DNA of 64,000 nucleotides from Echinometra lucunter (Eukaryota; Echinodermata; Echinoidea; Camarodonta; Echinometridae), in assembly GCA_029962745.1 (NCBI GenBank), contig CM057158.1:8930949-8994948 (forward strand), written 5' to 3'. Positions 38,665 to 41,600 of the stretch are shown here, one piece after another. The notes under the pieces are model-generated. The model was not told the origin of the DNA. It did no database searches and saw only the letters and a program-made list of their open reading frames with translations. How positions within the stretch are numbered: position 1 is the stretch's first letter; each line of letters begins with the position of its first letter. The position numbers and the translations under genes were made by a program.

Positions 38665-41600
38665 GTAGATAGATAATCAATTTTCTGATTCTTTTTGAAG
38701 TACACATATTAGGAATATATCACAGTATTATAAGCAGAAACACCGAGCCATGGGAAACATATTTACACAGGCCCTTCTCCATGTATATCATACCAATGAT
38801 AGTAGTTATACTTATAATACTGATAAATACTGATCAGACAGGAGAAATAGAAATACAAAGAATATTGAAACAAATAAAAGATTGATAAAGTTCTTTGATT
38901 TAAATGTTCAATATTTCTTTTGTAAGATTTGTTTTATTGCCTGGATGTAATAAAAAAGATATTGCATTTGTTTACATGTAGGTATGTTAGAAAGAGTGAT
39001 TTAGTTACTGTAACATGTACATGTACCTTTGGCACATTCCATTAGTACCTCATATTAGTTTGAGTGTATCTGGCCATTTTTATCATATCCTGAGCTGCAA
39101 TTTATGCTACCAACAGGCATGTTCCCATTCACAAATATTTTTTGCCAATAATCAGTAACAAATTAATAAAATGAAATTGAACTCTGAATTCAGATCAAAC
39201 CTTTTCTCATAGCAGTAGAACATTTTCATTCTTTGTCTAAGTTGTAGAGTTTACTTCCCACTTAACTTAGAAGTACATTTTCACATATTAATGTGCACTT
39301 TACTATGAATCAGCACAACCTAAAGGAAGATTGTTTATCAATATATTGTGAATTTTGTCAATATTTTCTTGAATAAGTATTTTCATTTTTTCATTTTTGA
39401 AATTTGTTTTTCGTGAGCCAGTACATGTACAGTCTGAAGATAAAGTAAATAGATGTTACTCAGTAGTCAGTACATTTTTCAAAATCATCATGAATAAAAT
39501 TCATTTGTATTAGTTGTTTTGTCAGTTACTGAAATACATAGTTCAGTAGAAATTAACTCATAATGTTGATCAACTTTGATTACCCATTAATTAAGTACTG
39601 TAAATTAAGAATGGTTGTATACATAGTTCAGTAGAAATTAACTCATAATGTTGATCAACTTTTTATGTATTATCTCATGAATACATTTTCTTTTCAAACT
39701 TTGCAAATATTTTCATTAGAATATTGGATAATTTTGATCAAGTTCATTATCCATTAATTAAGTACTGTAAATTAAGAATCGTTGTATTGATTTTGTGAGA
39801 ACCTGAACTCATTTGTTCATAACAGGAAAATTCTTGACCTTGATGTAATCACCCAGTCTGACCCGGGTAAGAAAGTATGAGAGTGTAAATCATCATAGTC
39901 TTGTGTTCAGGCCTTGGAAGAACTAATGAACCTCCGGAAAATTTCTTTTTTGTTTGTAGCTATTGTATGAAGTTTAAGCTAAGTTATTGAATGTGACAAC
40001 TGTGTGTTGCAATTTGATTGCATAAAATTGTTTTAAGGGACTAATATTCCTAGAGAAGGGTGAAATTAATTTCTTCCAAAGTTTGAGTAAGCTGTGGTGA
40101 TTCATTGTGTGTTAAGGTCATTAAGAATTAATCTGCAGGGGTTTTTTTTTTTTCTGCAATGAACATGATTGTTGATCCACCATCATCTCCATACAGTTTC
40201 TTTTCCTTCTTTTGCCCCATGTTCATTCATGTATGTCAACAAGATTTACTTTAGATTCAGCATTCTAGTTTTGCTTTCATTATTCTAAAATGCCATGGCC
40301 ATTGTCATACATGTAATTCTTTCATTCATAAGGTTATTTTCAAAAGCTGGCTTTGCTTCAAATAAGTCTAGTGACAAAAAATATTAGTTTAAGTCCCTCC
40401 CTTGTGACATTATATTGAATCAAAACTGCATGTTTACGTATAGTGAATCAGCAATCATTTTATTCCCTGTCAATCTGAGCTACAGGTTTTCCGGTACAGA
40501 CAAAAAGCTCAACATATCTCTAAGTTCTGAATCTTTTACTAGTCATTTTCCTTTTATGGTATTTCACCTACTAAATCCATTTCATATTTCTCTCTTGTAT
40601 TTGTGTTGTTGCCTTTCAGAAAACTTCTGGATATGGACGTTTTTTCCAAAAGTGACCCACGTAAGGAAATTTTACATGGAATGAATTTTTTTTAAAGTTG
40701 AGTCACAAGAAAAAACAAATTATTTGATGAAGCAATTTCATCACATTCTTGTACCAGGAGAAGTGCTCTCCCAAAAGTGACCCATGTAAGGAAATTTGAC
40801 ATGGAATGAATTTTTTTAAAGTTGACTCACAAGAAAAAACAAATCATTTGCTGAATTATTTGCTGAAGCAATTTCATCACATTCTTGTAACCAGTAGAAG
40901 TGCTCTCCCATTTGAAGCTCGTGCACATGAAAAAAAAAACAATTTAATCTCTATTCCAAACATGTGAGAACGACCTGTAGTGGTGCATTTCAACAATAAT
41001 GATATCTATGCTTAGGTTGAGAATATCAAAATATTGACAAGACCTATTACTTCAAAATATCAGCAAGGAATTAGTCTCATTAGTGAAGTTATTTCAAAGA
41101 TAAAAAGGACCGAATTCTAATAGTTAATCATTTCCATATATTGAAAATTTGCTGTATATATTATATGGATTTCATTCCATAATTGATCAGAATTCCTTGT
41201 AGGTTAAACAGAGATGCTACTAACAACAACATAATAATAAATCTGCATGCATTACTGCTTGCATCCAGTGTATTGATAACAGCATTTTATGAATATCAAT
41301 TTGTCTACTCAATTGCTAAATAGCCTTGATTTTTTTTCTCATCTATTTAATATTTTTTATATCTTTTGTCAGAAAGTGTTGCAAATCATAATGGTGAAAT
41401 AAATTTATTCCAAAATAGTTTCAGCAGGGAGAATGATATACTATGAAAATAAAGTTTGCATTACCAAAAAAAAAACCATTTTCACAACAATACAATTTGC
41501 AGCGAATAATTGCATGGTTTATCTTGCTTGGTAAAACTCATTGTGGAGACATGGTATTTGCCTTGGTAATACTCTAAATCCTCTTCCACTGCCTCTGTTC

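Follow-up and report, generated by a model that had tools for sequence, protein, structure and literature searches.

In the sea urchin Echinometra lucunter, a copine gene carries two tandem versions of a 41-bp second exon, 2a and 2b, which very probably are mutually exclusive exons that arose by duplication and whose misuse would be removed by frameshift and nonsense-mediated decay (NMD). The gene lies complete (38576-61245, + strand) within the window analysed here, a stretch of 64,000 nucleotides corresponding to bases 8930949-8994948 of contig C8, and its model, built from the sequence, comprises 18 coding exons, 17 of them per transcript. Copines are calcium sensors in most eukaryotes, and exon 2 encodes calcium-binding loop 1 of the C2A domain. 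We propose that this exon would have been duplicated in tandem long ago, and that both copies would have been kept, each productive mRNA containing one or the other by alternative splicing. The swapping of tandem-duplicated exons is a known phenomenon; what is unusual here is the exchange of the otherwise near-invariant tip of a calcium loop.

Splice sites, reading frame and loop residues

The original prediction described two 41-bp exons having their own acceptors and donors and the same phase, and the gene model bears this out: GT-AG sites are found at exactly the bases required for the junctions 38664-39826, 39866-44399, 38664-40620 and 40660-44399, and every intron of the copine gene is of the GT-AG kind. 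Translation of the joined exons agrees with the further claim that either exon connects exons 1 and 3 in frame, whereas the use of both or of neither shifts the frame. With 2a or with 2b alike, the coding sequence amounts to 1701 nt including the stop codon and encodes 566 residues. Joining of 2a to 2b leads instead to a stop at codon 79, and omission of both to one at codon 59; the two stops fall within exon 4, respectively 1295 and 1273 nt upstream of the last junction. Such mRNAs are expected to be targets of NMD because the stop lies ca. 1.3 kb before the last junction, and following the general rule they would be destroyed.

The splice sites were scored with a matrix built from the other introns of the gene, following a leave-one-out procedure. 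The donors of 2a and 2b scored 10.1 and 7.0, respectively (remaining donors, 4.1 to 10.5), and the acceptors 6.9 and 5.4 (remaining acceptors, -0.1 to 13.6). A search of both strands of the 64 kb for the pattern AG-N-[3 codons]-D-x-D-[5 codons]-D-P-N-GT rendered exactly two occurrences, which are 2a and 2b. Chance origin of the pattern was discarded, as it appeared in none of 300 first-order Markov simulations of 5734 nt.

In the two AlphaFold models that were obtained, exon 2 corresponds to a loop (residues 31-42) located between strands 21-30 and 43-50; these borders, together with the domains identified in the protein, support the assignment of the pair to calcium loop 1 of a copine C2A domain, as had been predicted. 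The Asp ligands D34, D36 and D42 are encoded in both exons, as translation and exon alignment confirm, and S41 and P43 are retained in both as well. The two protein forms differ at six residues, all of them in or next to this one loop. Positions 38, 39, 40 and 44 had been listed as variable in the original prediction, and those differences are real, but the list was incomplete, since I/L32 and L/M35 differ too. The tip of the loop (residues 38-40) is Phe-Ser-Lys in 2b and Ile-Thr-Gln in 2a, and the FSK tip is present in 170 of the 174 matches that have the loop motif.

Age of the copies and comparison with relatives

Exons 2a and 2b are best read as old duplicates that have both been retained. 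They share 24 of 41 bases (59%) and 9 of 15 residues, and seven of the nine codons that specify a same residue differ silently, e.g. serine, encoded by TCT vs AGT. Neutral evolution was simulated up to the observed 2a-2b distance, with 40,000 runs per starting sequence. An open frame together with D34/D36/S41/D42/P43 survived, per 10,000 runs, in 1.0 when starting from 2b, in 5.0 when starting from 2a, and in 1.25 when starting from the equivalent exon of a paralogue on contig C1. Partial copies of exons elsewhere in the gene, which serve as an internal control for the decay of copies not in use, are broken. Intron 9 contains three partial duplicates of exon 9 (C2B loop 3 region), derived from its 3' half and 89, 81 and 68% identical to it, each of which has an in-frame stop, that of copy 2 (54440-54442) located just beyond the aligned part; copy 1 retains the donor sequence. 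In addition, a 125-bp tandem duplication of two units (40646-40910) contains a second copy of the final 15 bases of 2b, with a decoy donor and without an acceptor. This 3' fragment (40771-40815) is presumed to be inert, and no third copy of exon 2 was found in the gene. The broken copies are 68-96% identical to their sources and would be younger than 2a, which at 59% is more diverged and yet intact.

The best match of the 2a form, among 120 listed of 7802 protein matches, is an NCBI copine-8-like isoform X2 from Lytechinus variegatus (P0001), 95% identical, in which the end of exon 1 is followed by the exact 2a peptide and then by exon 3 (from R30 to V44, 15 of 15 residues are alike). The representative from Diadema setosum, an isoform X1 that is 83% identical, reads RKLLDMDTFSKSDPLC, which is of the 2b type. 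Among those 120 matches, 12 bear echinoderm or hemichordate names: one has 2a, ten have a loop ending in SKSDP (nine with F38 and one, P0009 from Holothuria, with L38), and one (P0028) lacks the region. The protein database was clustered at 90% identity, so that either type of isoform, 2a or 2b, can be concealed by a representative of the other. A search limited to residues 21-60 rendered a single protein (P0001) among two candidates and is uninformative on other echinoids. As a separate observation, exon 2b contains an in-frame ATG (40633-40635; MDVFSKSDP) that has no counterpart in 2a, and in P0010, the isoform X3 protein of Amphiura filiformis, the first residue is a Met within the loop that matches this ATG; exon 2b might thus double as an internal translation start.

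It could be argued that 2a is a poison exon that lowers copine output through frameshifted mRNA containing also 2b, with no second protein being made. The stop at codon 79 upon inclusion of both exons and the good donor of 2a would fit such a role, which we nevertheless consider very unlikely: a poison exon needs neither conserved Asp ligands nor a frame compatible with a full-length product, whereas 2a alone renders an intact 566-aa protein, keeps an open frame and the D/D/S/D/P residues, which occurred in 1.0 to 5.0 of every 10,000 simulated runs, and is used alone in the annotated Lytechinus protein. The mutually exclusive exon pair of the original prediction is, in contrast, consistent with the frame, with the simulated decay and with the presence of the 2a peptide in the L. 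variegatus isoform.

In a paralogous copine of the same genome, exon 2 is present once, with 41 bp and the same phase (C1:1241221-1241261). A second exon 2-like match on this contig (C1:1295952-1295991) is 40 nt long, a length incompatible with the reading frame, so that no exon 2 pair, but one intact 41-bp exon 2 only, was found in the 100 kb covering the C1 paralogues, in which four 500-base N stretches could conceal sequence. In another paralogue, at 3.03 Mb of contig C8, loop 1 is encoded inside a larger exon. Some short vertebrate proteins are cut off directly behind SDP or continue from VCVLY, an indication that vertebrate copines share the same exon 2 borders. The 41-bp exon 2 probably predates the duplication, because the C1 paralogue has the same exon and the vertebrate breakpoints match, and 2b, which carries the usual copine loop, is probably the ancestral form.

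Other copine-like loci were also seen. Four copine vWA matches are located within ca. 75 kb of contig C1 (1249559, 1259576, 1282530 and 1322932; L005-L018), a region with just two exon 2-like stretches. Further Copine vWA matches are found at C4:20330464 (L002) and C4:20338837 (L001), ca. 8 kb apart, and at C16:4741420 (L003). The 357-aa frame of L001 has no copine C2 part discernible by eye, the 40 kb inspected at the C16 match showed no copine C2A, and our impression is that the C4 and C16 matches resemble the RGLG group.

Exclusivity, functional meaning and known systems

Several ways in which joining of 2a to 2b could be prevented were considered. A U12-type intron was discarded by comparison with the U12 consensus, the donors being all GTAAG-, GTGAG- or GTAGA-like and the acceptors all AG; steric hindrance was discarded because the intervening intron, of 753 nt, is not too short; and a distant branch point was discarded because the AG-free zone preceding 2b spans 75 nt, within the range found in the gene (20-137). 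The best duplex between intron 1 and the intervening intron (-34.3) is no better than those of 20 Markov reshuffles (-32.7 +/- 2.1). A TGCATG located between the exons (40427), which we take to be an Rbfox-like site, was given no weight, since the window contains 67 of them vs 39.9 +/- 6.0 expected, partly within tandem arrays. Four weak inverted-repeat pairs, AT-rich and some of them spanning one or both exons, were also observed around the region. The reading frame is the sole exclusivity device demonstrable here at the level of sequence.

Some observations weigh against mutually exclusive use of 2a and 2b. No special device forbidding their joining was found among intron type, intron length, AG-free zone and pairing with intron 1, so that the choice between them would have to rest on trans factors, specific to a tissue or a stage. 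The 2a peptide is present in no other of the 240 proteins retrieved, Diadema included, an absence that says little because the 90% clustering can mask sibling isoforms. The identity of 2a at 15 of 15 residues between two urchins that are 95% alike overall would be no proof of constraint by itself, because a run of this kind has a probability of 0.46 (0.95^15) at that overall identity. The X-number of the L. variegatus isoform is the NCBI label for computed models, and exclusive use is deduced here from the sequence and one annotated isoform. Finally, 2a is a derived copy found in just one other species, which, given that incomplete copies of exons have broken down elsewhere in this gene, would be compatible with one of the copies, 2a or 2b, being a relic that is rarely or never used and is on its way out. 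That this is so is hardly to be expected, since 2a, more diverged than the broken copies (59% vs 68-96%), has an open frame, splice sites and all the ligands and is present in the Lytechinus isoform, and since 2b carries the usual copine loop.

With regard to function, an altered calcium or lipid preference of the 2a form is plausible. Less certainly than the splicing itself, this form, with its changed loop tip and its calcium ligands kept, would still bind calcium but show weaker docking on acidic membranes or on a partner compared with the 2b form. Only tentatively would we extend this to the idea that splicing alone may serve echinoids to adjust a copine as a calcium sensor, 2a weakening or redirecting calcium-driven membrane docking in particular cells or stages. 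It is quite possible, if short of probable, that splicing is mutually exclusive and the two loops are nonetheless equivalent, the differences in residues reflecting neutral drift. The loop 1 calcium-ligand Asp residues are indeed kept in both exons, and C2A has been reported, in the part of a review on copines available, to be dispensable beside C2B (PMC10968396). Equivalent loops would be less easily reconciled with residues 38-40 being near-invariant in the other copines retrieved, the loop being thus intolerant to change elsewhere, nor with the presence of the same 2a residues in a second species.

The original prediction held that no such switch had been described for copines. The literature, as represented by open-licence papers, mostly by their titles and the starts of their abstracts, agrees with this statement, which has to be qualified in that the 2a isoform was already present in a public NCBI protein record. 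Splicing that affects C2A domains of different protein families has reportedly been described: in dysferlin, alternate splicing of C2A is said to confer Ca-dependent and Ca-independent binding (Fuson et al. 2014, by its title), and in Piccolo, alternative splicing of C2A is said to act as a conformational switch (Garcia et al. 2004, by its title), reportedly through a nine-residue insertion.

Substitution of tandem-duplicated exons, or mutually exclusive exons, constitutes a known class, according to the available parts of two papers (PMC9741552, PMC5740500). The exons described there resemble 2a and 2b in being adjacent homologues with a conservative swap in which ligand residues are mostly kept. 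Like 2a and 2b, 377 (60%) of the human clusters reported in PMC5740500 have exon lengths not divisible by three. Neither main text, as available, mentions copine, CPNE or C2 domain, the present case corresponding to an echinoid and to one C2 calcium loop. A further likeness is found in exons 4a and 4b of OGDH, a mutually exclusive pair that alters calcium sensitivity (PMC7969005, accessible part). The distant-branch-point scheme of OGDH (PMC7969005) is, in contrast, not indicated for the copine, in which the AG-free zone before 2b covers only 75 of 753 nt.

Human copine isoforms, as presented in the available part of the same copine review, are also generated by alternative splicing, mostly as deletions or alternative N-termini (PMC10968396). 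Human copine 7 has a 75-residue insertion in C2A, and no loop-for-loop exon swap is described among the human isoforms in that part (PMC10968396). According to the review, it is not clear how alternative splicing affects copines, and the C2 borders of earlier copine constructs were inaccurately determined (PMC10968396). Two natural full-length proteins that are six residues apart offer a clean test of the role of C2A loop 1, because all the differences lie in or beside that one calcium loop. A sea urchin copine, not necessarily the product of the gene in the window, has been described as a major matrix protein of the embryonic spicule (PMC2909932, seen in part).

Gene model and other features of the window

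The features of the copine gene are compiled in the Table. In the 2b form, Pfam identifies two C2 stretches plus PF07002, the Copine domain (E 2.6e-90); for residues 1-152 of the 2a form, it identifies a C2 domain (E 1.6e-13). The protein aligns to BON1 over residues 21-534, and the named matches, among the 120 listed, are mostly copine-8, -5 or -9. We regard the gene as a copine of an echinoid, probably a near relative of copine-8.

Table. Position and basis of the features of the copine gene (coordinates of the window)
Feature	Position	Strand	Basis or remark
Exon 1, coding part (N-terminus, C2A strand 1; start codon to phase-2 donor)	38576..38664	+	gene model; N-terminus near-identical in L. 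variegatus P0001
Exon 2a, 41 bp, derived C2A calcium loop 1	39826..39866	+	gene model, pattern search; identical peptide in L. variegatus isoform X2
Intervening intron 2a-2b, 753 nt, GT-AG	39867..40619	+	AG-free zone before 2b, 75 nt
Exon 2b, 41 bp, usual copine C2A calcium loop 1	40620..40660	+	gene model, pattern search; FSK tip in 170/174 loop-motif matches
Partial 2b copy (last 15 bases and donor) in second unit of 125-bp tandem duplication	40771..40815	+	repeat search
Exon 3, 47 bp, C2A strand 2; frame fits 2a or 2b	44399..44445	+	gene model
Exon 4 (C2A); site of premature stops for both-exon and no-exon joins	47462..47565	+	gene model
Exon 5 (C2A loop 3, DVDSKSHD)	49131..49170	+	gene model
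Exon 6	49523..49596	+	gene model
Exon 7	49970..50030	+	gene model
Exon 8 (C2B loop 1)	51634..51737	+	gene model
Exon 9 (C2B loop 3 region)	53731..53877	+	gene model
Three broken partial copies of exon 9	54230..54576 (54230-54335, 54372-54438, 54471-54576)	+	in-frame stop in each
Exon 10	56413..56488	+	gene model
Exon 11 (linker, start of vWA)	56743..56905	+	gene model
Exon 12 (vWA/Copine domain)	58048..58229	+	gene model, Pfam
Exon 13 (vWA/Copine domain)	58879..59006	+	gene model
Exon 14 (vWA/Copine domain)	59374..59476	+	gene model
Exon 15 (vWA/Copine domain)	60153..60210	+	gene model
Exon 16	60610..60683	+	gene model
Exon 17, last coding exon, with stop	61036..61245	+	gene model

An Rfam scan of the window gave no match, and neither did a comparison of the 41-bp exon with phage sequences, a result that carries no weight. 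Repeats were observed at several places. Intron 8 of the copine gene contains a 157-bp tandem repeat (52116-53026, 5.8 copies) adjoining a CCGTCCGTCGT microsatellite, and positions 1-2076 are occupied by a tandem array with a 225-bp unit (9.3 copies). A 15-bp repeat (5067-5495, 28.6 copies) has two open frames, with MSEVK and NVRGK repeats, and shows no evidence of a gene. Upstream of the copine gene, a stretch of a sialyltransferase gene was found on the + strand (20143-20484; Pfam Glyco_transf_29, E 4e-16), and the open reading frame at 23510-23935, for which Pfam gave no confirmation, looks like a further sialyltransferase exon.
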